In this document: piece by piece, positions 3,340-40,423 of the stretch | Position numbering within the stretch: position 1 is the first letter of the stretch | Layout of the letters: each line of letters starts with the position of its first letter | Assembly (NCBI RefSeq): GCF_003627795.1 | Contig: NZ_CP032684.1 | Location: 2,581,001-2,645,000, forward strand | Direction of reading: 5' to 3' | Source of the DNA: Rhizobium sp. CCGE531 | Lineage (GTDB): Bacteria; Pseudomonadota; Alphaproteobacteria; Rhizobiales; Rhizobiaceae | Length of the DNA: 64,000 bases | Program-made: the position numbers and the translations under genes | Notes under the pieces: model-generated | The model's database searches: none | What the model was told of the DNA's origin: nothing | The model's input: the letters and a program-made list of their open reading frames with translations, nothing else

Positions 3340-3674
3340 AGGCGGTCCCCAACAGCGACCCTTAGCCGGTTTATCTCATGACCGACATCAAAACGTCGTT
3401 GAAGTTGCGGCAGCGAACGATCATGTCCGGGGCGCTGATAGCCGCAACCAAAGCCCAATCCATGGGGATATGAACCGCAAAGCGTCTAACAGGCGGTTAA
3501 GGTGATACCGTCAATCATCACATTAATAGGTTGTAGTTCGCGTGGATTTGATTGGATTTGATTTCGCGAACCATCAATCTGGCCTTGAGGCCGCGCAAGC
3601 TCTCGCTTGCCTGCAAGAAGCGAACAGGTCATTGATAAAGCTGTATGAATGTCCCGCCAGAGGAATACTCCTGC
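3340..3674. other. Intergenic region without a convincing gene
   Basis: About 335 bp between the divergent GumK-like gene (minus) and the secreted lyase gene (plus). It should hold both promoters, but I see no clear consensus promoter and no strong hairpin. Short open frames here are overlapped by others, lack ribosome sites and do not resemble proteins. Confidence 0.5.
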
Positions 3675-4643
3675 ATGAATGCAAAATACGCACTGCCCGC
3701 CATCCTGGCCTGCACCTGCGCCGCAACGCCGACTCTGGCTGATAACTCGGCGCAGATGGTTCTGCATGACGGCTTCGACGGCACGGATTTCGCGCCGTCC
3801 GGCCATCTTTATTATCGCGATAACTTCGAACAAAAAGCGGGGGCGATTGAATTTCAATCAGAAGTCACGCGGACTGGCGCCGGCGCGCTAAAGCTGAGTG
3901 TCAAACCATTCTGCCCACCCGGTAAAGCGAATTGCAGCGAAAGAGCGGAGATCTGGGAGCGTACCAAGTATCGCGTGCCGTACGATCAGGGAGTTTGGTA
4001 CGGCTTTGCCGTGAAGTTCGCCGACCCCGTCCCGTCTGGCGATCATCGTTATCTCATTGCGCAATGGAAACGAGAAATCGGGCCGAAGGCGGAGGGAGAT
4101 TTCAGCCCCTTCCTGGCCCTGCGGCTCAACAACGGCAAGCTTTTCGCTACCGTGGAAACCAACTACGTTGCACCGGTCGAGAAGCGCAAGCTCAAGAGCG
4201 ATGGTGAAAGTTGCAATGACAGCGAAACGCCTGTTTGGTTCCGGCCGGACACCAATCAGATGCGTGCCTTGGTGGCGACGGATGATAATTGGAATGATGG
4301 TGACGGTGGAGAATTCACCAGTTGCACCAACGCAATCAAGGTAATAAATCGCGGCAACAAGCTACCGACGCCTTCTTCCGGATGGATTGACTTCGCCATC
4401 TACAGCAAACCCGGCCCGGACGGCTCAGGTCATATCGAAATATTCGCTAACAATAAATGGATTGTCTCGGTTACAGGCCATATTGGACATGCCGACCATG
4501 GGCTCGGAAAGAACCAATACTTTAAGTTTGGCCCGTATCGTGCCGCAGATACTACGGTTTGGACTCTCTATTATGATGATTTTCGTCGTTCACCGCATTG
4601 CGCTGATGTATTGTCGGACCCCAGTCTGTGTCCCATGAAGTGA
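3675..4643 (+). CDS. Secreted heparin-lyase-like polysaccharide lyase
   Basis: A 322-residue protein with a Sec signal peptide (NAKYALPAILACTCAATPTLA, cleavage probably after LADN). The mature part has a jelly-roll lyase pattern: SERAEIWE near mature residue 75, then WYGFAVKFADP, RYLIAQWKRE and FLALRLNNGKL, and C-terminal YFKFGPYRA...VWTLYYDDF. These are hallmarks of the polysaccharide lyase family PF14099 (heparin lyase I-like, PL13/PL20-type fold). I chose the ATG at 3675, which has AGAGGA about 10 bp upstream, over the ATG at 3645, which has no ribosome site and would put ten extra residues before the signal peptide. Cysteine pairs in the mature part suggest disulphides and periplasmic or extracellular action. 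It probably trims the polysaccharide made by the neighbouring genes; substrate not determinable. Confidence 0.8.
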   Translation: MNAKYALPAILACTCAATPTLADNSAQMVLHDGFDGTDFAPSGHLYYRDNFEQKAGAIEFQSEVTRTGAGALKLSVKPFCPPGKANCSERAEIWERTKYRVPYDQGVWYGFAVKFADPVPSGDHRYLIAQWKREIGPKAEGDFSPFLALRLNNGKLFATVETNYVAPVEKRKLKSDGESCNDSETPVWFRPDTNQMRALVATDDNWNDGDGGEFTSCTNAIKVINRGNKLPTPSSGWIDFAIYSKPGPDGSGHIEIFANNKWIVSVTGHIGHADHGLGKNQYFKFGPYRAADTTVWTLYYDDFRRSPHCADVLSDPSLCPMK

Positions 4644-5668: not shown

Positions 5669-6529
5669 TTACAGGGAACTCTGATCGGCCGCCTCATCTT
5701 TCAAAACATTGGCAATACAGTCCCGCTCTTCAAGGATGCCGGACCATTCGTCCCGATGGTACGTCGAATCATAGATTAGCGTAAAAGGGCCCTGATAACC
5801 GGCCGCAGCGGAAAGCTTTACGCAACGAATATAATCCTCGGCATCGAGGCCGGCTGCTGAATAATGCCCCTTTGCGTGGCAAAGCTCGGCGCGGCCCATG
5901 ATCCTCGCGAGATCATCGTATTTTCCGGCACGCGCCCAATTGCCGAAGTCCCCGTTGAGGCCGACTTTGCCGTCCAATGCATCGAGAAGTCGGTTGACCT
6001 CCGCTGGACTTGGTAAGAGATCAAACCAGTTTTCCACCACCAAACGCACCCCCGCCGCGGCGGAAAGATCAGCCAGCCGATGCAGATGATTTTCTGCGAG
6101 CGTCAAAGCTGTATCCGTCGGCTGAGCCTTTCCGGCTATCACACGCATGTTTTCCGCGCCGAGAGCCACGGCAATATCGATCCAAGTGGCCATCCAATCA
6201 GCATCGCGCTGCGCTGTTTCAGGATCGCTAAGGTCCCCTTCTTCAATCAGCAGGGTCTGAACCTTTACTCCAGCTTTTTCAGCAGCCTTGCGAAAATCGG
6301 CAAGATAATTCGGAAGGAGGCTCGGCAAATGGAATGAACAGATTTCAAGCCGAAAGACTCCATGACCAGCGCATTGTTGCGGTACATCGATCAGTTCCAT
6401 TCCCCCCTGCCCATAAGTCAATTGGCGGGCCGGAACTGCCCGATCGCTGGGCTTGTAAGGATAGATGGGACCGAGCGCGCGATGTAGAGACCACGTTGAA
6501 ACCGCAAAGCGATCCGAAAAATCAACCAT
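5669..6529 (-). CDS. Sugar phosphate isomerase/epimerase (TIM barrel)
   Basis: About 286 residues with the xylose-isomerase-like TIM-barrel pattern (PF01261). It starts with STWSLHRALG, and metal/substrate-site regions follow: RLEICSFHLPS near 60, LLIEEGDL, RVIAGKAQ, LVVENWFDLLPSP, LNGDFGNW, ELCHAKGHY and FTLIYDS. The conserved Glu (VENW), Asp/His (GDFGNW, CHAKGH) and terminal region are in the expected order for a divalent-metal sugar isomerase or epimerase. The sugar is unknown. The start is uncertain: ATG 6529 has GGGGGAG directly upstream, ATG 6541 has none, and the frame extends to a TTG at 6565. It is the last clearly host gene before the prophage. Confidence 0.78.
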   Translation of the reverse strand: MVDFSDRFAVSTWSLHRALGPIYPYKPSDRAVPARQLTYGQGGMELIDVPQQCAGHGVFRLEICSFHLPSLLPNYLADFRKAAEKAGVKVQTLLIEEGDLSDPETAQRDADWMATWIDIAVALGAENMRVIAGKAQPTDTALTLAENHLHRLADLSAAAGVRLVVENWFDLLPSPAEVNRLLDALDGKVGLNGDFGNWARAGKYDDLARIMGRAELCHAKGHYSAAGLDAEDYIRCVKLSAAAGYQGPFTLIYDSTYHRDEWSGILEERDCIANVLKDEAADQSSL

Positions 6530-6653
6530 ACGCTCCCCCATTTTGTCGATCGCTGACGGAACCAAGAAATAGGCTCGCCCAAGGGAATATCAATCGGAAA
6601 CACGCAATAGATTACCTGCATCAATCATTCGTCCGATGGAGGCAGTCGGACCA

Positions 6654-9974: not shown

Positions 9975-12900
9975 TTACCTCTTGAATGCGGTCGCAACGA
10001 TGTTGCTCTCCCGCCAGCCGATTGTGTTGCTGGGGCAGTAAATCTGCAGGGTGTAGGTGTGATAGCCCGCACCGGGAGCGTCATAAAGAGCCGGGACGCC
10101 AACAAGTCCAGCGGTGTAGGTCACTTGGGAGGTGCCACCATTGCCGCCACCTTGGACCACCGTCTGAACGACGCCCAGGTAGTAGGTCTGACTGAAGATC
10201 GCGGTTCCGTCGCGGAAGATGTTGCAGCCGATCGGCTGCGAATTTTGGCTGCCGCCATTCTGATTAAACTGCCCCAGCGTCATGGCGTTGATCATGACAC
10301 GACTATCGCCCGCCACCGTAATCCCGACCGCAGCGAGGTTGACGGTTTGATTGGCCCCGATTGTCTGGGTATCCGCAACGCGGCCGGCATTCATCGCCGT
10401 GACGGCCCCCGCGCTGATGTTGGACGTACCCACCTGCAACGAACCAATGACGGCAGAGCTGATGTTGACCGCGCCGAGATTGGCGGTGATGGCGTCCAGG
10501 CTGTTGACCGCGATCTTGTTCGCCGTCACCGCACCATCGACAATCAGCTCGGCCGAGACGGCGCGGCGCATAACTGGCTTCGACCAGTAGCATGAGCTGC
10601 CGGCGCCGGCTGTCTTCTCGACCTGCAGGAGCATGGCAAGTTTGGCATAGCCGCTGGGAATCGTATATCGCCCTTGCAGTCGCACCCAGCCGTTCTTCGT
10701 GGCTGTGCTCGCGACAATCGGATATGCCAACGAGCCAGACGGGGTCGAAACCAGGGCATAGACATTCGCCGTCCCTGCATCGGTGTTGTAGGCCCAAACA
10801 TCGAAGGCATAGACCTCGCCTGCCGTGACCGCAATGAAGTTCGAGCGCGCGCAATCGCGGCCTAGTGACTGAAGCACCCAACCAGCCGCATCACCAGAGA
10901 CGGTGTCATTGTAGAAGGCCTGGACGTTCTGAGTGATCCATCCGTCCAAGACCCCGGCCTGCCAGCCGTTATCGGCCATGTTGCTGAAGTCCGTCAGGAC
11001 GAGTTGCTTTGCCGTGATCGCGCCTGCGGCGATCTGGTTGGCGCCGATCGTGTTGGCGGCGAGCTTGTCGCCCGTGATTGTGCCGGCCGCGATCGTGGTG
11101 GCGGTGACCGCACCAGCTGCGATCTTGCCTGCCGTCACCGCATTGGCCGCAATATCATCGGCCGTCACCGCGTTAGCGGCAATCTTGTCGGCCGTGATGG
11201 CATTGGCGACAATCCCGCCATTGGTGATCATCACTACCCCGCCGTCGCTCCATGGCGTTGGTTCCGTTGCACCGGCCGGAACACTGCAAAGCATCGGCTT
11301 GTGCAGGAACAAATAGCTGTCCGTCTGCCCGCCGTTGGTGTCGAGCTTTCGAATGTGGATCGCGACGGCAACTGCGCTTGCGGGTGCCGCGCCGGTCACG
11401 CGCAAACGCAGCCACAAATCAGGATTAGTCGAGCTGCCATTGATCGAGGCATTCGAGGCTGGAGCGCTATAGTCGACGTCTTTGCCATCAGAGCCCATCC
11501 AACGCAGCCGAAGTTCAATGGTGCAGCGGTGTGCTGACGTGTAGGCGCTCGCCTCGAACCATTCCCCCGGAGCGCAAGAGACAGACTGATTAAATCCAGC
11601 CGTCAATGTGTCACCGCCTGGACGTTTCCAACCCACATCTGCAAAAAAGCCGCTCGGTCCGCTTCCTTGATAAAGCATAAGGGTCGGAAAGCTTACGCCA
11701 GCCCACGACGTACCCGCAGGACGCATCGCAAGCGAAAGCCCCGGTATAGCGCCACTGGCATAAGTCAGCCGCCAGTTGTCGAGACCAGCTGCGAAATTAG
11801 CGCCCTGAAGCAAGTTCTGGCCGGAGCCGACCGCAAGCGCATCCGTCGTCACCGAATTGGATGCAAGCTTGTCGGCCGTGATGACACCGGCCGAGATCTG
11901 CGCTGCCGAGACCGCACCCGCCGCAATCGTCCCAGCCGTGACGGAGTTCGCGGCTATTGTACCCGCAGTAACAGCATTGGCAGCAATTTTGCCGGCGATC
12001 ACTGCGCCATCAACGATCAGGCTGGCTGATGCCTTTCGCAGCAAGCTAAGGCCGCCGATCGAGATGTTACCGTCCGTATAGTTCCTATGGATGTACATTT
12101 TGAGAACCGCACCACGTGCCGAGGCGGGTGGCATCATGGCGGCAGTAAATGTCTGCAGGCCATTGGCGGTGCCACCATCAGCGGTACCGTAGACAGTGAT
12201 ATTCGTCCACGTGTCCGGATTGAGAAGGTTGCCACGGGTGTCAAGCCAGTGAATGCGTGCCCACAAGCCGTACTTGGAGCCCGAAGTACGGATCACCTGT
12301 ATGGAGGCAAGATATTCTTGACCAGCGGCAACCGCGAAAGGCTGACTTTGTCCAATCTGCATGTAGCCGGCGCCCATGAAATAAGTGTAGTCGAACGATC
12401 CTTTCGACGTGAAAGCCTGGGCTGTTGAAGGGTTGACGACGGTATCATTGAGCGCAGACCACGCGTCCGGCGTCTGCAATTGGTTGTCGGGAATGAGATT
12501 TTCCCAATCTTGCAGAACGAGGCTTCTGGCGGTGATCGCATTTGCCGCGATCTTGTCGGCGGTGACGGCGTTAGCAGCAACCTTGGATGCCGTTACCGCA
12601 CCATCGACGATCAGCTCTGCGCTTGAAGCACGTCGCATATTGGGTTTGCCCCAATAGCAGAAGTTGCCGTTCGGTGCGCCTGCCGGCTTTGTTACACCCA
12701 TCGTCGGTTGGATGAAATAAACCCCTGCCGGAACGACGAAATTGCCCTGGAGCGGTGCCCAGGCCTTAGCCGAGCTGGTAGCAAGGGCGACGAAGCCGCC
12801 CACGCCATTGAGCGACTGATCCTTCAGGTAGAAGCCGATGAAGACGTCATAGTTTGGGTCGGTGTTAAAGGCCCAGGCGGAGAAATTATAGCTCTCGCCG

Positions 12901-17023: not shown

Positions 17024-17668
17024 CTATTTCTTCTGGATGACCTTGAAGGTGGCGCCCGTGGTGATCGGCCCGCTCGCTGTGCCGGGATTGTGGCTGCCCG
17101 GCATGACCAGGCATTTGCAGGCTGGCAGCAGAAGGGTCACGCCGAGACCGGCGGCAAAACCGGCCGGCAAATGCGGGAAGACGCCGAAGACGGGCGTAAT
17201 CCCCTGCCCGCTGGCATCAACCGTTTCCGAGACTTCGAGAAAGGCGTAGCGACCGCCATAGCCGACCTGCATCTTGTCGCCGACGGTCAGCCGATAGCCG
17301 ACCGGCAGGCCCTTGAGGCTCAGCGAGGCATTGTCGTCACCGAGCGCCGCGACGCTGACGCTCACAGCCCCGAGCTTCGTCCCGTCGGGATCGGCCTGCG
17401 GATATTTCGACAGCGGATCATAAAGAAAAAGCGCCTCCTGGGCGCCGTGCAGTTTGCGGATGCGGGCGGCGATCTGTTTCGCCTCCGCATTGTACATGTC
17501 GGCCAGCGTCACCGTGCCGGTCCAGAGCGGCGGCGCCAGCTCCGCCTGCCAGACCCGGCCATCGCCGGAGCCGGAAAGCTCGTCATTACGTTGAATGTCC
17601 CAGACGACGCTGGAGATCTTCAGAAGATCGGCAAAGGCCGGCAGGCTGTAGGGATAGGAAACGGCCAT
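17024..17668 (-). CDS. Probable distal tail protein
   Basis: A 214-residue beta-rich protein (SVVWDIQRNDELSGSG near 19, AELAPPLWTGTVTLADM near 43, GYRLTVGDKMQVGYGG near 128). It sits between the tape measure gene and the DUF2163 gene, the place of the distal tail (Dit, GTA gp12-like) protein. I do not recognise the family from sequence alone, so the role is inferred from position. Its start overlaps the stop of the tape measure gene by one base. Confidence 0.65.
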   Translation of the reverse strand: MAVSYPYSLPAFADLLKISSVVWDIQRNDELSGSGDGRVWQAELAPPLWTGTVTLADMYNAEAKQIAARIRKLHGAQEALFLYDPLSKYPQADPDGTKLGAVSVSVAALGDDNASLSLKGLPVGYRLTVGDKMQVGYGGRYAFLEVSETVDASGQGITPVFGVFPHLPAGFAAGLGVTLLLPACKCLVMPGSHNPGTASGPITTGATFKVIQKK

Positions 17669-20088
17669 CAGCGCCTCCGGGGATTGCGGTTGATCTGCGC
17701 GACGCGATCGGGAAGCTGCTGATTGAAATCATTCAGCCCCTGCCGCGTTGAACTCTGCGCTTCCGATTGCGCGACATTCTTCACATAGGCCTTCAGATTG
17801 CCGTCCTCATCGACGGAAACGCCAACGGTGACATGCACGCCCGAAGCGGAGCCCGAGGCATCGTTCTGATTGTCGGCCCGGAGGCGACGGACGGGAACGG
17901 CAGCATCCGGCTGCGCCCGCAGCAATTGCGGCCCGCCCTCGCCGACCACGCCGCCATCGGCATAACCGCGCCGGCCAAGCCGCATCGCCTCGACAACGCC
18001 GACGCCGCCCGCCCGGGCAATATCCTTCTGGCTCCAGACGACCTCGCCGGCGTGAACGATGCCGGCAGGTTCATTCTTGCCGCCGGGGCCGGTATAGCCG
18101 CCATCGGCCCAAAGGCCGGGAATGCCACTTGCGACGGCCGCCGCCGCCTGCGGCGATCGCGCCAGAATGCCGAGATCCAGCCCACCGCCACCGCCGAAGA
18201 GCCCGCCAAGAATACCGCCGCCACCGAGCAGCCCACCGCCTGCGGCAGCACTATTGACCTTGAACAGGCTGTTGAGCACATCGTTCAGCAACCTGTCGGA
18301 AATCTTGGTAAGCACGGAAATCGCCGCCTTCCCCAGGGATTTCCAGAGGCCCTCGCCATTGCGCAAGCCGCTGACCAGCGTCGAGGCAAAATCGCCGGCA
18401 AGCTCGCGGGCATATTTCAGCTGTTCATTGTAGCGAATGATATTGGCAGAGGCCGAATTCATATCGACCGGCAGGCCATATTGCTTCTGTGTCGAGGCGA
18501 CTGTTTGATCGATGGTCGAGCGGCCCATTTGATCCTGCTGGAACTGGATATCGCCCGCGAGCTTCTGCAGCGTCTGCGCGTCGGCGACACGCCGATAGGC
18601 ATCGGCCTGATCGTTGGCCGCCTTGGTCAATTGCGGCATCTGCGCCAATTGCACGGCGCAGCTTTTCTGAAGCTCATCCTGACTTTGCTTCAGCGTGACG
18701 ACCTTCGACTTCACATTGTCCGTCGCGGCAGCGGATTGAGCGGAGCTCTGGGTGCCAAGTTTGGTTTGTTCGGTGTAAGTTCGTGAAGACTTCGTGAGGC
18801 CATCCATCGCGTCTTTCTGATCCTGTATAAGCTTCTTCGAACCGGCGGCCACGAGAGGCTTCGCGTTGCTGTCGCCGCCTGGCACAAAAGCTGCTGCAGT
18901 CGACCAATTCTGAAGGTCGCTCTGCGTTCTCGCTGCTTTGTTTTCCGTTGCGCTTTGTCCGATAACCGTCCCACTATCACTTAGCTGAATTGTATTTTTC
19001 TTGGATTCATCAGCGGGGGACGAATATTCCTCTACAATTTGGTGCCAAGCAGTGCGCGATTGCTCGCTTAATCGATTTATTGACGCCAGCTCATCGCCCA
19101 TTTTCGCGCCAGTGTCTGTAAACGAAGCATATAACTTCTCAAGACCAGACACATAGGGCGCATTCTCGGGCTTAGCGATTGCGTTTCTTAGATCAGCACT
19201 TACCCTATCGAGATCTTCTTGGGTTATAGTTCTATTTCTCAGGGCAACTTTCAATTCATCATATGAAGGGGAATTGGGACCCGGCAGCATATCAAACTGC
19301 GGATTTCTCTCCTGAAATGCCTTAAAGATATCATCTATTTTGGAAAATTTATTACTGATATCTATTCTCGGAGAGATTATCGTATCCACAATTCTTTTCG
19401 TTTCGCGAGCAACCGCGAGATCTCTGTCGTATTCCGGTATAGAACCTCCAGATTCTTCCTGTCTTTGCTTGGAGGTTTCATAAGATTTGTTGGCGTTATC
19501 CCGAATCTGCATTAGTTTATTATCATCCGTATTATTTGCCACCCACTGAAGAAAGTCGGAAATTACCCCAGCCCCACCACTCACTTCTTGGCGTGGCGAC
19601 AGAGGGGCGGCTTTTCCCAAGATCCAGCTAATTCCCCTCAATACTTTCTGCTTATCGCTCTCAACAAAGGGCTTGCCGGCATCCGGCGCATGACTTGTCA
19701 CGAAATCGAAATTCGAGCCTCCTCCCAGCCGATCAAAGTCAGCTCCGGCGCCGATAGCATCATCAGATATCTTTTGATCCGCGATTTGGATTGATTGCGG
19801 CTTCACTGTTGATTGTTCGTTTAACGCAACAAGAGACGTAGGCGCTTGAATGGTTCGGCCGCCTAGTCTGCCAAGGCTCGAGTCAAACTTCGAGACTTCG
19901 GACGTAGCCTTGCTAACAACTCCGCTAGTACCCCGAATATCTTGGTTTACCCCATTGATGGCTCGCGCGACTGCGCCCGTCGATTTTTCTGCACGAGATG
20001 CTTCTGCATTCCAGGCTTTGATATCGGCGGTTGCAACCCGCACACTGGAGCTGTCAACAGCGAGACTTAATGTTGCAACGTCTATCAC
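17668..20088 (-). CDS. Phage tail tape measure protein
   Basis: About 806 residues from a GTG at 20088 with AAGGAAAG six bases upstream. The frame also offers ATG 20136, but without a ribosome site and reaching toward an opposite-strand gene. The N-terminus (ATLSLAVDSSSVRVAT) is typical of tape measure proteins. A long helical region follows. The C-terminal third has YARELAGDFASTLVSGLRNG, a Gly-rich hydrophobic stretch (about 600-660) and WADGGYTGPGG...GIVHAGEVVWSQKDIARAGG, a common tape-measure C-terminus. It sets tail length and enters the target membrane. The first half (about 18750-20088) is visibly more A+T-rich than the rest of the operon, indicating mosaic origin. Confidence 0.88.
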   Translation of the reverse strand: MIDVATLSLAVDSSSVRVATADIKAWNAEASRAEKSTGAVARAINGVNQDIRGTSGVVSKATSEVSKFDSSLGRLGGRTIQAPTSLVALNEQSTVKPQSIQIADQKISDDAIGAGADFDRLGGGSNFDFVTSHAPDAGKPFVESDKQKVLRGISWILGKAAPLSPRQEVSGGAGVISDFLQWVANNTDDNKLMQIRDNANKSYETSKQRQEESGGSIPEYDRDLAVARETKRIVDTIISPRIDISNKFSKIDDIFKAFQERNPQFDMLPGPNSPSYDELKVALRNRTITQEDLDRVSADLRNAIAKPENAPYVSGLEKLYASFTDTGAKMGDELASINRLSEQSRTAWHQIVEEYSSPADESKKNTIQLSDSGTVIGQSATENKAARTQSDLQNWSTAAAFVPGGDSNAKPLVAAGSKKLIQDQKDAMDGLTKSSRTYTEQTKLGTQSSAQSAAATDNVKSKVVTLKQSQDELQKSCAVQLAQMPQLTKAANDQADAYRRVADAQTLQKLAGDIQFQQDQMGRSTIDQTVASTQKQYGLPVDMNSASANIIRYNEQLKYARELAGDFASTLVSGLRNGEGLWKSLGKAAISVLTKISDRLLNDVLNSLFKVNSAAAGGGLLGGGGILGGLFGGGGGLDLGILARSPQAAAAVASGIPGLWADGGYTGPGGKNEPAGIVHAGEVVWSQKDIARAGGVGVVEAMRLGRRGYADGGVVGEGGPQLLRAQPDAAVPVRRLRADNQNDASGSASGVHVTVGVSVDEDGNLKAYVKNVAQSEAQSSTRQGLNDFNQQLPDRVAQINRNPRRR

Positions 20089-20149
20089 AGGGCTTTCCTT
20101 TTCAAAGAAACTTGCAATATTGTCAGCGGGCATCAATCAGGGGGTGAAA

Positions 20150-20533
20150 ATGCGCCGGATACTCGCCACGGTTCTTCTTTGCATGGTCGCGGATGGCGCC
20201 ATTGCCGATGACGATCAAAAGATGGTGGATTCCATGGAGGCGTTTACCAGAGCTGGCTTTGATACTCTGAGCGCCGCGTATGTCTGCCGTAACGTGGTCA
20301 GTGCCGACAGATACCTAAAGCTCCGCAAAACTATTGAGATAGCATTCGTAGATACAATTAAAGATACCGATCTCGTTCGCAAAACAGTTGATAGCTGGGA
20401 AAAAGCAATTTCTAACAGTCCGATATACAAAAACCACCATCCGACAGCCGACCAATGTGCAGATTGGCTCCTCATGAAGCTCCAAAAGTTCAAAGCAGCG
20501 TCTGATGTGGTGCAAAGCTACGGTGTTCGTTGA
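20150..20533 (+). CDS. Small secreted protein, opposite-strand phage cargo
   Basis: A 127-residue protein from ATG 20150 with AGGGGGTGA upstream. It has a Sec signal peptide (RRILATVLLCMVADGAIADD, cleavage near ADGAIA-DD). The mature part is helical with two cysteines about 60 residues apart (AAYVCRN, ADQCADW), suggesting one disulphide in the periplasm. It lies on the plus strand between tail chaperone and tape measure genes of a minus-strand operon and is A+T-rich, which marks it as cargo (a moron). Function unknown; superinfection exclusion is one idea for exported morons. Confidence 0.65.
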   Translation: MRRILATVLLCMVADGAIADDDQKMVDSMEAFTRAGFDTLSAAYVCRNVVSADRYLKLRKTIEIAFVDTIKDTDLVRKTVDSWEKAISNSPIYKNHHPTADQCADWLLMKLQKFKAASDVVQSYGVR

Positions 20534-20562
20534 CGATTATTTAAGTGTATATGAAAACAGCA

Positions 20563-20583
20563 GAATTACGGTGACAGTGCACT
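20563..20583 (+). repeat. Left terminal inverted repeat of RAYT element
   Basis: 21 bp; core GGTGACAGTGCACT, perfect reverse complement of 21291-21311. It lies 31 bp before the transposase start. Confidence 0.8.
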
Positions 20584-20614
20584 CACTAGATTCCAGATCT
20601 GACCAACACGCCCA

Positions 20615-21292
20615 ATGGCCCGTCTCGCTCGTATCGTCGTTCCTGATATTCCACATCATGTTACCCAACGCGGCAACGGGCGGGCGCAAACCTTCTTTTG
20701 CGATGATGACTATGCGCTCTATCGCGATCTCCTGGCTCATCATTGTCGCGTCGCTGGCGTAGAGGTCTGGGGCTGGGTGTTGATGCCCAACCATGTTCAC
20801 CTCATCCTCGTTCCGGCGGATGCCGACGGTATTCGCCGCGCACTATCTCGCGTTCATCGCACCTATGCCGGCCATATCCATGCAAGGCTGCGCCGGACCG
20901 GCCATTTCTGGCAAGGCCGCTTCGGTTGTGTCGCCATGGATGAAGAACATCTGGCCGCAGCGCTCCGCTACGTCGCCCTCAATCCGGTGCGCGCACGCCT
21001 TGTCGAACGGGCTGCCGATTGGCGATGGTCGAGTGTCGCTGCCCAGCTTGGACTGATTGAGGATGACGGCGTCACGACCACAACACCGGTCCGCGCTCGC
21101 TTTCCCGATTTCGCCGCCCTCCTCACTGCCACAGAAGAAGAGATGGCGTTTGCCACGCTTCGCCGCGCCGAAAGCATCGGTCGCCCCATCGGCAATACCG
21201 ACTTTTTCGACCGGCTCGAAGACCTCACCAACACCACCCTCAAGCCGGCTCGTCGCGGCCGCAAAGCCAAGGCCGTCATTGGAGAGAATTAG
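20615..21292 (+). CDS. REP-associated tyrosine transposase (RAYT, Y1/IS200-like)
   Basis: A 225-residue Y1 transposase of the HUH superfamily. N-terminus: MARLARIVVPDIPHHVTQRG. The metal-binding HUH motif is PNHVHLILVP near residue 58; the active Tyr lies in LRYVALNPVRARLVE near residue 117; HFWQGRFGCVAMD is also typical. The C-terminal 80 residues are a basic extension, longer than canonical IS200 and usual for RAYTs. These enzymes cut single-stranded palindromic DNA and are usually single copy with REP repeats. No frame damage is seen, so it may be active. Its insertion among phage tail genes is unusual for a chromosomal RAYT. Confidence 0.88.
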   Translation: MARLARIVVPDIPHHVTQRGNGRAQTFFCDDDYALYRDLLAHHCRVAGVEVWGWVLMPNHVHLILVPADADGIRRALSRVHRTYAGHIHARLRRTGHFWQGRFGCVAMDEEHLAAALRYVALNPVRARLVERAADWRWSSVAAQLGLIEDDGVTTTTPVRARFPDFAALLTATEEEMAFATLRRAESIGRPIGNTDFFDRLEDLTNTTLKPARRGRKAKAVIGEN

Positions 21293-21311
21293 TGCACTGT
21301 CACCGTAATTC
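21291..21311 (+). repeat. Right terminal inverted repeat of RAYT element
   Basis: 21 bp, perfect reverse complement of 20563-20583. Its first two bases belong to the transposase stop codon. Confidence 0.8.
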
Positions 21312-21417
21312 CGTAATTCGTTAAGTGGCAGTTTGCGACCGGTTCGGTAATCAATATCGCAACATCTGCCACTGGTGTCCCTTTCAAAACCATGCGAAAT
21401 ACAACCCTGCGCTTTGA

Positions 21418-21870
21418 ATGGGGGATTTCGTGATTAGATTGTGGAGATTGGTCAGCGTGGCTTTTTTGCTATCGCTGTTGGCTAGCTGTGATCTCTTTGA
21501 CGCCAAGATCGTCACAGTATGTGAAAGTGTCCTCAAGGATAGGCTTCGGTCACCGTCCGAATACAAGCGGATCGAAATCACGCGGTCCGAGGAAGCCATT
21601 GGCCGCGCAGAGTACAAAGACCTTCTCGGCAGCATAGGTTCTGCTACACTTCAAGCGGTAATGATGGACGATTTTGACAGCGGCCTGATAAAGCCCATGC
21701 GGTATACTCTTCGGATAAGTTACGACGCGCCAAACGCCTACGGCACAGCAATTCGTGGCGTGTCCAGATGCGAATACGCAAGCCCATTTGGGAGTGATTC
21801 GACGGCTAATGAGTTCAGCGTTCGCATCGATGGCGATACCGACATGGAATGGCGGAAAAAGCTGCGGTAA
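21418..21870 (+). CDS. Lipoprotein, opposite-strand phage cargo
   Basis: A 150-residue protein with a signal peptide ending in a lipobox (SVAFLLSLLASC, Cys about residue 24), so probably a lipid-anchored envelope protein. The mature part holds VCESVLKDRLRSPSEYKRIEI near 35-55, resembling the 'LKxPSxYK' signature of small bacterial lipoproteins, and a second Cys (SRCEYA) near 130. Start: ATG 21418, or GTG 21430 with GGGGGA just upstream. It is on the plus strand inside the minus-strand tail operon and A+T-rich, therefore likely cargo. No specific function is known. Confidence 0.68.
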   Translation: MGDFVIRLWRLVSVAFLLSLLASCDLFDAKIVTVCESVLKDRLRSPSEYKRIEITRSEEAIGRAEYKDLLGSIGSATLQAVMMDDFDSGLIKPMRYTLRISYDAPNAYGTAIRGVSRCEYASPFGSDSTANEFSVRIDGDTDMEWRKKLR

Positions 21871-21992
21871 TGGCGACCTGCCCCTCAGAAAACCGCACCA
21901 AAAGTTGCAGCCATGGAAGCTGATGTATCTTTCGACCCGACGCATTGAATATCTGCAAATGGGCGGTGGGCCGAAGGATAACGATCGCCTGA

Positions 21993-22723
21993 CTACCCCG
22001 CCTCGCGCGCCCTGATCGCCTCCGTCTCCTCCTCCACCACCTGACAATAGCGCCCGTCCATCGCCTTCAGCACGGCGATGTCCTCGCGGCGCAGGAGATT
22101 GCCGGTCAGCTGCAGCCAGGCCAGCATTTCCTGGTGGGAGAACGGCGCCGGGCCAGAAAAGCCGGGGGCCTGCGCCGAGCGCAGATCCCAGAACCAGTCC
22201 CAGAGCGCATGGCCGGCCTCCGGCACCTCGGCCTCCGGGCTTAAAAGCTCGAAGGCCTCGTTGCGTTCGCGCCGGGTTTCGCCGTTTGCATCGCGCACGC
22301 AATCATAGCGCGCAACGATCCCTACGGCTTCTGAAAGCCCTTCGGCAAGCTCTTCATAAAATTTGCGCGGTCCTCCGAGGCGCCGGCCACCTGATCGTAG
22401 ATCCAGCCGGCTTCCTCGACGACTTCGCGGGCCTTCTCGAAGGAGAGTACAGGCTGCTCGCCTTTCCATTGCTGCTCGCCCCAGCTCCAGGAGGCGATGG
22501 CGGCGGCGGCCTTGTCGAGATATTCGGCCTCGACCTTGCTGGTGGTCAGCTTCTTCTTGCGGCTGGCGAGGAAGCGGTCGCTATGCTGGCGAACGATCTT
22601 CTTCACCTCGTTGCTCTCGGCCGAGCGGATCATGAAGGAGATGCCGAGCGGCTCCTCGGTGGCCGGATGCAGGAGCTGCAGCTCGAAGAGATCTTCGGAA
22701 TTGACGAGACTGGAGATATCCAA
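21993..22723 (-). CDS. Tail assembly chaperone, -1 frameshift product (GT-like)
   Basis: The frame at 22357-21993 has no sensible start of its own but is in the -1 frame relative to the upstream chaperone gene and overlaps its end. A perfect slippery heptamer lies in the overlap. Slippage after residue 122 (Phe) would add 121 residues and give about a 243-residue fusion. The added part is protein-like (HALWDWFWDLRSAQAPGF..., QEMLAWLQLTGNLLRREDIAVLKAMD), with the helical, Trp-rich style of T-type chaperone extensions. In lambda and many siphophages the G and GT proteins made this way guide tail tube assembly on the tape measure. Confidence 0.8.
22322..22723 (-). CDS. Phage tail assembly chaperone (short, G-like form)
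   Basis: A 133-residue protein (MDISSLVNSEDLFELQLLHP..., GISFMIRSAESNEVKKIVRQ) located after the tail tube gene, the standard place of the tail assembly chaperone. The middle (KKKLTTSKVEAEYLDKAAAA...SWSWGEQQW) is helical. It ends normally at 22322, and the -1 frame continues beyond (see the frameshift product). Confidence 0.82.
   Translation of the reverse strand: MDISSLVNSEDLFELQLLHPATEEPLGISFMIRSAESNEVKKIVRQHSDRFLASRKKKLTTSKVEAEYLDKAAAAIASWSWGEQQWKGEQPVLSFEKAREVVEEAGWIYDQVAGASEDRANFMKSLPKGFQKP
22358..22364 (-). promoter_or_regulatory. Programmed -1 ribosomal frameshift site
   Basis: Reads A AAT TTT on the coding strand in the chaperone reading frame (codons 121-122), an exact X XXY YYZ heptamer (AAATTTT). 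After slippage the codons become AAA TTT and continue TAT GAA in the downstream frame. It lies 12 codons before the chaperone stop. I did not model a downstream stimulatory structure. Confidence 0.82.
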
Positions 22724-22806
22724 GGAAACACCTTATCGGTTGGGACATATTCGAGTGGCCGCGCGCCGCAGGAGAGCGGCGCGCGCAAGGTTCCGTAAGA
22801 TCGCGC

Positions 22807-23292
22807 TTACGGCGTGGTGACGGGATCGACGCGGATCGGCAGCTGGTTGAGGCCGACCTTGAACTTCTCCAGATCGAAATCGTCGGAGCCGCCGCCGGGA
22901 TAGAGCGGGCCGGAAACGACGCCGCGCGAATAGAACACCGTGTTGGTCTTGCCCTGCGGCGCGTCGTTGCGCTCGACCTTGATCGCCATGTTGTTGATGT
23001 TGAGGGGATCGCCGAAAAGGCGCAGAATGTCCTGGCCGGGATCGTCGGCGATGGAGGCGACTTCGAGCTCCGGATCGCCGGCGTTGGAAACGCCCTTCTG
23101 CTTCTGCTGCACCGGCTCATCCAGTGTATTGTAGTTGTTGATGGTGGATTCCGAGCCGAAATCGCCGACCTTGCCCACCTTGCCCACCTGCACCCAGGTC
23201 ACCGCGGCATAGGCCGTGGCCGTCAGGTCGGTATTCTGGGGCGTCTCGCATACGTAGACTTTCGAGCCCTTCTTCGTGCTTTTGTTCGCCAT
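22807..23292 (-). CDS. Phage major tail tube protein
   Basis: A 161-residue beta-rich protein. It shows WVQVGKVGKVGDFGSESTIN near 33, LDEPVQQKQKGVSNAGDPEL (typical of siphovirus tube proteins: a GDPEL-like turn before a long strand), and VERNDAPQGKTNTVFYSRGV. It sits between the tail terminator and the chaperone. The monomers would stack as rings to form the tail tube. Confidence 0.8.
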   Translation of the reverse strand: MANKSTKKGSKVYVCETPQNTDLTATAYAAVTWVQVGKVGKVGDFGSESTINNYNTLDEPVQQKQKGVSNAGDPELEVASIADDPGQDILRLFGDPLNINNMAIKVERNDAPQGKTNTVFYSRGVVSGPLYPGGGSDDFDLEKFKVGLNQLPIRVDPVTTP

Positions 23293-23295
23293 GGA

Positions 23296-23727
23296 TCATG
23301 TCTCCGGTTCAAAGGCGGTGTAGGGAATGGTGACCGGTATCTGCACGCGGTCATCCTCTTGGATCGGGCCTGCGGCCCACGGCTCGCCACTGATCGTGAT
23401 CTTCACGCCAGAGGCAAACAGCGTCTTGTTGTTGAAATGGTCGATGACCTGGCCGGCGGCATCGAGTGGCTTGATCAGCCCGCCGCCGGCCTTCCAATAG
23501 ACGGAAACCTGCAAAAGCCCGAGCTTCTGCTGCGGATCATCGCCAAGCGTCACCTGCCGGGGGCGGTTGGGCAGGTAGCTGACGGCCAGGTAATTATCCG
23601 GCTTTTCTTGCCCCGCCGGCGGGAAGGCAATGCCCGGCTGCGCCACCGGCAATGGCGGCTGAAATTGGAGTGCTGCCAGATGATCCAGCAGCGCAGCCAG
23701 AATGAGAGCGTCCGTCGCCGTCGCCAT
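23296..23727 (-). CDS. Phage tail terminator (DUF4128-like)
   Basis: A 143-residue alpha/beta protein: N-terminal helix ATDALILAALLDHLAAL, FPPAGQEKPDNYLAVSYLPN, LGLLQVSVYWKAGGGL and DRVQIPVTIPYTAF. This fits the DUF4128/tail terminator family, which caps the finished tail tube and joins it to the head. Position directly upstream of the tail tube gene agrees. Confidence 0.78.
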   Translation of the reverse strand: MATATDALILAALLDHLAALQFQPPLPVAQPGIAFPPAGQEKPDNYLAVSYLPNRPRQVTLGDDPQQKLGLLQVSVYWKAGGGLIKPLDAAGQVIDHFNNKTLFASGVKITISGEPWAAGPIQEDDRVQIPVTIPYTAFEPET

Positions 23728-39442: not shown

Positions 39443-39518
39443 TGGTGGGCCCGGAGGGACTCGAACCCCCAACCAAGCGGTTATGAGCCGCCGGCTCTAA
39501 CCATTGAGCTACAGGCCC
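39443..39518 (-). tRNA. tRNA-Ile with CAU anticodon (lysidine type)
   Basis: 76 nt on the reverse strand including an encoded CCA. Acceptor GGGCCTG pairs with CGGGCCC (one G-U); D arm GCTCAATGGTTAGAGC; anticodon loop CTCATAA with CAT; T loop GTTCGAGTC. A CAT anticodon can be Met, but the GGGCCTGTAGCTC body is that of alphaproteobacterial tRNA-Ile2, in which C34 is changed to lysidine by TilS to read AUA. Confidence 0.9.
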
Positions 39519-39679: not shown

Positions 39680-40423
39680 ATGCCTGTGAAGAAAACCAGA
39701 GATTTTGCTCTTGCCGCTCTTGTCAGTGCCACTTTCTTCGTGCCTGCGGCCGCCGCCTTTGCCGAAGACGCCAAGCCGCGGGAAGCCGTCATCACCGTCT
39801 CCGGCGAGGGACATGCGGCCATTGCGCCGGATATGGCCGTGGTAACGCTGTCGGTCGTCCAGCAGGCGAAAGCAGCCCAGGATGCGCTCGATCAGAACAA
39901 CAAGGCCATGGGCGCTGTGCTGGCGACGCTGAAGGAGAGCGGCATTGCCGAGCGCGATCTGCAGACCTCGGGCTTTTCGATCCAGCCGCAATATACCTAT
40001 CCGAATGACAAGGACGGCCGTGGCCAGCCGCCGGTCCTGAACGGCTATCAGGTGACGAACGGCCTGACCGTTCGCGTGCGTGATCTCTCCAAGCTCGGCG
40101 GTCTGCTCGACCAGGCAGTCAAGCTCGGCATCAACCAGGGCGGCGATATTCAATTCACCAACGACAAGCCGGATGCGGTCCTTGAAGAAGCCCGCAAGAA
40201 GGCGGTCGCCGATGCCGCCGCCAAGGCGAAGACCCTGACGGACGCCGCCGGCGTCAAGCTCGGCCACGTCATCGCGATCCATGAGGGTGGTGTCGCGGCT
40301 CCGCCGCAGCCCTACATGCGCAGCATGGCCGCCGCAGCACCGATGGACAAGGCCGTTCCCGTCGCAACCGGCGAAAACGAGTACAACGCCTCGGTGAGCA
40401 TCACCTACGCGATCCAGCAATAG
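39680..40423 (+). CDS. SIMPL-domain (DUF541/YggE-like) periplasmic protein
   Basis: A 247-residue exported protein. Signal peptide DFALAALVSATFFVPAAAAFA, cleavage near AFAED. The mature protein begins REAVITVSGEGHAAIAPDMA, the hallmark of the SIMPL family, followed by LKESGIAERDLQTSGFSIQP, YQVTNGLTVRVRDLSKLGG, EEARKKAVADAAAKAKTL and ENEYNASVSITYAIQ. Related proteins (YggE, BP26) form ring-like oligomers in the periplasm and are linked with oxidative stress and, in Brucella, antigenicity. Confidence 0.9.
   Translation: MPVKKTRDFALAALVSATFFVPAAAAFAEDAKPREAVITVSGEGHAAIAPDMAVVTLSVVQQAKAAQDALDQNNKAMGAVLATLKESGIAERDLQTSGFSIQPQYTYPNDKDGRGQPPVLNGYQVTNGLTVRVRDLSKLGGLLDQAVKLGINQGGDIQFTNDKPDAVLEEARKKAVADAAAKAKTLTDAAGVKLGHVIAIHEGGVAAPPQPYMRSMAAAAPMDKAVPVATGENEYNASVSITYAIQQ

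Follow-up and report, generated by a model that had tools for sequence, protein, structure and literature searches.

Does the tail assembly chaperone gene of a phage element in Rhizobium sp. CCGE531 encode a single protein or, through a programmed change of reading frame, two? The question arises from two overlapping frames on the reverse strand of the stretch of DNA analyzed here (the window: 64,000 nt, positions 2,581,001–2,645,000 of NZ_CP032684.1). Comparison of related sequences indicates that this siphovirus-type gene very probably yields two proteins through a programmed -1 ribosomal frameshift of the lambda G/GT type. The features at issue are the following.

22322..22723, reverse strand: G-like tail assembly chaperone in the 0 frame, 133 residues, TTG start (phrog_313, E 2e-12)
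22358..22364, reverse strand: slippery heptamer A AAT TTT (codons GCA AAT TTT), in exact X XXY YYZ phase in the G frame
22322..22324, reverse strand: 0-frame stop TAG, after 11 sense codons past the heptamer
21993..22358, reverse strand: T-like segment of 121 codons and a stop, read in the -1 frame and predicted to be entered by the slip (PF23812; phrog_20700, E 3e-54; AlphaFold2)
21993..22469, reverse strand: 158-codon open reading frame of the mechanical list, with an ATG start missing from many relatives

The reverse strand reads GAC CGC GCA AAT TTT ATG AAG across the slip site, its TTT being codon 122 of G, and direct reading of the sequence verified the position (22364–22358) and exact phase that the original prediction had given for the heptamer. 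Past the slip, the -1 frame (AAA TTT TAT GAA) is open for 121 codons and ends in a TAG at 21995–21993, giving a predicted fusion of 122 + 121 = 243 residues with the junction peptide ...DRANFYEELAEG...; this size and the 133 residues of the short product are those first proposed. G begins with a TTG that has AAGG (22734–22731) 7 nt 5' of it; among 54 distinct sequences, chosen for the heptamer, 32 have TTG and 22 have ATG at this position. Automatic annotation had been expected to list a wrongly started frame of 158 codons; exactly such a frame is present in the mechanical list and is likely a misannotation.

By itself, the presence of the heptamer is weak evidence and could be due to chance: when any X XXY YYZ sequence was counted (Y being A or T, and Z any base other than G), 21% of 20,000 codon-usage shuffles contained one in the 256-nt overlap. 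Given Ala-Asn-Phe, the codons GCA AAT TTT have a p value of 0.019, and across ten prophage genes such heptamers occupy 4 of the 4832 positions that are in phase. It is the conservation across loci that we regard as decisive for the putative slip site.

For this comparison, 159 loci with a T domain were assembled from genome searches (with at most 11 candidates scored per genome in the order and class searches), IMG/VR scans, GTDB contigs and phage records. An upstream G-like frame was recognized at a profile E of ≤1e-3 in 144 of them, by a profile that was built from 42 heptamer-bearing loci and may favor such loci; the 15 loci with no recognized G were dropped (L020, L024–L026, L028–L031, L087, L089, L094, L095, L112, L156, L157). 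The set contains repeats, the window's own locus occurring four times (L001, L002, L032 and L079). Two genome searches, of 199 genomes each, found no loci beyond those already in the set. T lies at -1 relative to G in 139 of the 144 loci, isolated phages included, and 130 of the 144 have a perfect in-phase heptamer: A AAT TTT (A3T4) in 94, T TTT TTN (T6N) in 33, G GGA AAC in two and A AAT TTC in one. With identical copies removed, 102 of 114 loci retain a perfect heptamer, as do 59 of 69 clusters formed at 90% nucleotide identity. A comparison of the heptamer among relatives, proposed at the outset as a check, came out in favor of the site: A AAT TTT is kept in all 56 distinct loci, the window's sequence among them, whose T domain is at least 55% identical to that of the window.

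Beyond the perfect heptamers, 107 of 110 distinct -1 loci have an in-phase T TTT among the final 20 codons of G, as against 3, 2, 0 and 1 of the 110 in four control windows further upstream. Since T TTT is nearly constant at the end of G, the constant core of the site is the UUU (Phe) codon of the A site with a U before it, and the P-site codon varies. Outside the site, the G genes of 45 A3T4 loci use AAT for 35 of 88 Asn codons, TTT for 41 of 148 Phe codons and GCA for 74 of 584 Ala codons. Several individual loci are of separate interest. The -1 frame of L015 has a TGA that abuts the heptamer; in L094 and L095, T overlaps an upstream frame not recognized as G, and the overlap contains A AAA AAC; and L020 holds a truncated G and T in a single frame of 193 codons, probably the result of a deletion. 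Four loci (L153–L155 and L158) are from uncultured Bartonella metagenome-assembled genomes with a G/T pair, A AAT TTT being in phase in three of them and the frame of L158 apparently broken.

The pattern named beforehand as speaking against a frameshift was a broken heptamer with T kept and given a normal start. Of its two halves, the first is seen in the 14 of 144 loci that lack a perfect heptamer, namely nine -1 loci with imperfect sites (L011/L118, L076, L077, L082, L085, L086, L109 and L111) and five in which T is at +1 or -2 (L009/L150, L108, L083 and L158). The second half is absent from nine of these 14, which have no start codon for T in the stretch searched, and is conceivable in the other five (L009, L150, L108, L083 and L111), which have two candidate starts each.

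Starts for T are also the point at which a different explanation has to be weighed, that T is a separate gene, overlap-coupled to G and translated from its own start, either the ATG of the 158-codon frame or an internal GTG or TTG. The window does offer a T-frame ATG and GTG, 145 nt before and 26 nt after the first base of the G stop, respectively; the database record of Rhizobium phage RHph_X2_24 has T starting behind the G stop, that of phage vB_RglS_P106B shows a 43-codon stub, and L009/L150 and L108 have a GTG in common 19 nt past the G stop. Against this, in 71 of 144 loci (the window not being one of them) the T frame contains none of the codons ATG, GTG and TTG as far as 30 nt past the first base of the G stop, the window's ATG is absent from many close relatives, and no Shine–Dalgarno (SD)-like sequence was evident by eye before the candidate start codons inspected. 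The claim that the second frame has no conserved start of its own is thereby upheld. T-like genes with candidate own starts, found solely at loci with no recognized G, do exist (L024–L026, L028–L031, L089 and L112), but these represent another arrangement.

The distribution of substitutions bears on the same issue. In all seven comparisons of the window with relatives, changes fall mostly at third positions of G codons before the heptamer and at third positions of T codons after it, so that coding constraint in the T frame is absent 5' of the slip site and begins behind it, which speaks against the 158-codon ATG frame. Among 24 non-redundant relatives, GCA AAT TTT is identical in all while the codons just before it vary; these loci were chosen for A AAT TTT, which makes the score of the slip codons partly circular, and only constraint outside the three slip codons is therefore independent evidence. 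In the same 24-sequence scan, synonymous constraint in G remains high in the codons past the heptamer. The second residue of T, F2, is invariant in 33 aligned members. With these data, we consider a separately initiated T very unlikely, and frameshifting within the pair remains the preferred reading.

Comparative data also count against the view that the two frames are the remains of a decayed gene, or of a single gene that was mis-sequenced. Prophages may decay, an apparent deletion has brought the domains of L020 into one frame, and L158 seems broken; but the -1 position of T recurs in 139 of 144 loci, those of isolated phages among them, and dN/dS is below 0.3 for both the G and T parts in the seven genomes compared, and we attach almost no probability to this view. 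Slippage of the RNA polymerase at the A/T run, instead of the ribosome, could be imagined for relatives with T TTT TTT, where seven consecutive T occur. The A3T4 run of 94 of the 144 loci is too short for polymerase slippage, however, and the strict X XXY YYZ codon phase is what would be expected for a ribosome, making a transcriptional origin of the frame change extremely unlikely.

Family, fold and gene order point to the same ribosomal frameshift. The T segment matches PF23812 (Phage_TAC_18, 'Phage tail assembly chaperone') at E 3.8e-9 and 37 bits, with a curated cut-off of 27 bits, and this family is matched by 32 of 33 aligned T proteins at E ≤ 0.01. For G, the family matched is phrog_313, 'Tail assembly chaperone', as it is for 30 of 32 members of the G alignment (A4). 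The -1 segment had been described as Trp-rich and helical: it contains four Trp (W55, W57, W59 and W83), and AlphaFold2 predicts it to be mainly helical, at a mean pLDDT of 94, with the first helix starting at residue 2, the slip-site Phe. The model of G is moderate (pLDDT 71), with values under 50 at residues 1–9 and 125–133, the latter lying past the slip. Fold matches of T in BFVD are fused chaperones of 232–268 residues (from CcrColossus, Seurat, Loki and one unnamed source), two of them at E ≤ 0.001; among solved structures, there was no convincing match by sequence, and the best E values for fold, 0.26 and 0.69, fell short of the 0.001 threshold.

The G/T pair sits between the genes for the major tail protein and the tape measure protein, as the lambda G/GT type requires, in a tail operon that also holds terminase, portal, capsid and connector genes:

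22807..23292, reverse strand: major tail (tube) protein, upstream neighbor of G (phrog_158, E 1e-23; PF08813 below its cut-off)
17668..20136, reverse strand: tape measure protein, downstream in the tail operon (phrog_24, E 5.5e-21)

Between T and the tape measure gene, on the opposite strand, lies a gene for an IS200-like (Y1) transposase (20615–21292, forward strand; PF01797), which is full-length in genome G1165, partial in G1171 and unmatched in the stretches fetched from the remaining five genomes.

Site conservation, the switch of codon periodicity between frames, family and fold matches, and operon position together support a frameshift of the lambda G/GT type, as originally put forward, as by far the best reading. 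Most ribosomes would stay in the 0 frame and stop 11 codons past the heptamer, releasing G. In a minority, tRNA-Asn on AAU in the P site and tRNA-Phe on UUU in the A site would move back by one base to pair with AAA UUU, after which these ribosomes would continue in the -1 frame to yield the 243-residue GT. On the lambda model, G would form a coat on the tape measure protein and GT would draw in the tail tube protein through its helical T part; neither G nor GT would stay in the particle. The ribosome shift, the ratio of G to GT and the chaperone roles are what we infer from this comparison.

Elements that might stimulate the shift are less distinct. Upstream of the heptamer lies

22371..22376, reverse strand: GGAGGA, SD-like, 6 nt 5' of the heptamer, a possible stimulator (its GAG codon is shared by 22 of 24 close relatives)

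and downstream structure is weak or missing; a stimulated -1 site of the dnaX-like kind would combine an upstream SD with a downstream stem-loop. SD-like sequences upstream of the heptamer are common among the loci, though not universal. Their mean interaction energy is -7.2 versus -4.4 kcal/mol in synonymous shuffles for 35 A3T4 loci, and -5.3 versus -4.2 kcal/mol for 21 T6N loci. Per-locus p values range from 0.045 to 1 (0.195 for the window); because of this wide range and the kinship of the loci, no claim is made for an SD-like stimulator. On the 3' side, folding of 60 nt starting 6 nt past the heptamer gave a mean z of -1.18 for the 35 A3T4 loci, where another folding window was lower (-1.42), and a z of -0.5 for the site of the window itself; folding against shuffles gave no clear 3' stem-loop in the A3T4 loci. 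A longer stretch of the window's DNA reached a z of -1.8, with 10 of 200 shuffles as good. For the 21 T6N loci, the mean z of -1.38 was the lowest of seven folding windows, and a downstream RNA structure is possible there.

A departure from the -1 relation is seen in L009/L150 and L108, whose T domains are 90% identical. Their G ends in GCC GCC TTT TTT CGC GGA GAT CAA/G TGA, and T follows in +1 (or -2). Between L009/L150 and L108, 26 synonymous and 3 non-synonymous codon differences separate the G parts before the slip, 24 and 14 separate the T parts after it, and the T frame read upstream of the slip has 1 synonymous versus 18 non-synonymous differences. To judge from this pattern, in a lineage of two distinct sequences, both frames are evidently under purifying selection. 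If tRNA-Phe slipped by +1, from UUU to UUC, the product would be collinear with those of the -1 relatives. Separate initiation of T from the shared GTG is conceivable in this lineage, although conserved T residues precede that GTG. L083 has a similar site, ACG TTT CTC, and a scan of viral contigs with L083 as query returned no relative. Passages of PMC5009743 report a +1 shift at UUU in a rhizobial integrative and conjugative element and, for a haloarchaeal virus, regard one as very likely in the corresponding gene; given the precedents in those passages, the +1 relation is not new in itself. The chaperone family constitutes a natural experiment, in which a single pair of domains, meeting at one Phe codon, is combined with many slip sites and with a changed frame relation.

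Set beside known systems, the locus shares with lambda gpG/gpGT two overlapping frames between the tail tube and tape measure genes and a short and a fused chaperone. It differs in its slip site, which is A AAT TTT here and GGGAAAG in lambda, and the comparison with lambda is one of arrangement. The chaperones of Seurat, Loki and CcrColossus (262–268 residues) are alike to T in fold, but come from phages of other host groups and have 14–21% sequence identity to T. The records of Seurat and Loki give a short and a two-piece product; that of Seurat annotates ribosomal slippage at position 10236, in the sequence AAT TTT TTC TAA (T TTT TTC). Closer to hand, the Rhizobium phages P106B (L075) and RHph_X2_24 (L074) have G and T domains with a heptamer of another type in the same place as the A AAT TTT of the window, T TTT TTT and T TTT TTC, respectively. 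In the two records examined, the frames appear as separate hypothetical proteins with no fusion annotated, the stub of P106B belonging to 3618–4384 and the late-starting hypothetical protein of RHph_X2_24 to 3639–4387. The present finding corrects the reading of the tail gene in a group of rhizobial prophages.

The rhizobial prophage site is clearly a new example of an already known frameshift mechanism. Passages of PMC5009743 give a G:GT ratio of 30:1 for lambda and describe low-level G–T frameshifting as widely conserved in long-tailed phages except T4. Also phage-derived is the HK97-like chaperone cluster of Antonov et al. 2013 (PMC3711429), defined by similarity to HK97, for which the passages available list 41 genes with frame transitions, two of them assayed at 6 and 7%. 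Among the literature matches listed in open-licence searches (for example, the best 15 of 613), no title or beginning of an abstract describes the rhizobial chaperone site.

What, then, has kept the frameshift in place? The G/T pair belongs to a larger unit:

6654–36299, borders estimated: phage element of ~28 kb (holin, endolysin, tail, head, terminase, CI-like repressor)

flanked by an AP_endonuc_2-type gene on the left (5669–6565) and a SIMPL gene (39680–40423). In a search of 16 genomes, which stand behind chosen loci of the 41 from GTDB contigs, TerL was at least 88% identical in 13, and in 11 of these 13 the left gene, TerL and SIMPL lie on one contig in the same order; the two exceptions are G1172, split between contigs, and G1170, where the left gene was not found. 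TerL is elsewhere in G1177 and G1179. The TerL of G1178 (N. vignae) is 55% identical and lies ~20 kb from that genome's SIMPL gene, and its position near the same gene makes an insertion hotspot possible. Across the 148 genomes of the genus, TerL at 88% identity or more is present in 34, the next matches being at 85% (partial) and 76%. The order of structural genes is common to the seven genomes fetched. The pattern suggests that the element is old and at least partly inherited vertically; its occurrence in one place perhaps reflects a domesticated phage or else an insertion hotspot. In either case, the retained frameshift marks tail assembly as still under selection in a phage-like element found at the same place in related species.

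No match to the PF00589 tyrosine integrase or the PF00239 serine recombinase was found inside the element at E ≤ 1e-5 in 8 of 8 genomes, and an exact search of the window with 15–40 nt from the 3' end of tRNA-Met (39443–39518), as a candidate attachment site, returned no second copy. Every computable comparison of element genes gave a dN/dS of ≤0.29. Set against the features of gene transfer agents (vertical inheritance, no self-integration, selection on structural genes), the observations point both ways: the shared location in 11 of 13 close genomes, the lack of such recombinase matches and the low dN/dS on one side, and on the other the TerL of G1178, whose position fits a hotspot. A tentative proposal, which as a whole we think rather unlikely, the more so in view of G1178, is that the Rhizobium tropici group has in the element a domesticated particle-making device (gene-transfer-agent-like or PBSX-like), which would be why the frameshift has been retained, and that within the chaperone family the slip site can move on a constant U UUU core (A AAU UUU, U UUU UUN or imperfect) and has flipped to +1 (or -2) at UUU UUU C in one Phyllobacterium-type lineage. 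The idea of a domesticated device draws on the head, tail and lysis genes and CI-like repressor, the missing tyrosine and serine recombinases, the single place, the divergence of TerL and repressor along with the host flank, and selection on G and GT. Among rhizobial elements, passages of PMC10811719 describe rhizoviticin as a prophage-derived, F-type tailocin of Allorhizobium vitis, found in one genomic region in its strains; it is likewise rhizobial and prophage-derived, but is there described as being without head genes and as keeping replication genes and an integrase remnant, whereas the present element has head genes.

The genes of the element do not all follow the host flank to the same degree. 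In 28 non-independent pairs, the Spearman correlation of distances with those of the left host gene is highest for CI (0.76), holin (0.73), TerL (0.70) and DUF2213 (0.67), lower for portal (0.42), MTP (0.39), MCP (0.38) and endolysin (0.36), and lowest for T (0.22), G (0.16), and TrP and DIT (both 0.13). Relative to seven genomes, dS is 0.09–0.48 for MTP, TrP, G, T and DIT (17024–23727), 0.26–0.60 for MCP and 0.67–1.39 for TerL and CI. The tail module may have been exchanged by recombination, or may be more constrained or under strong codon selection.
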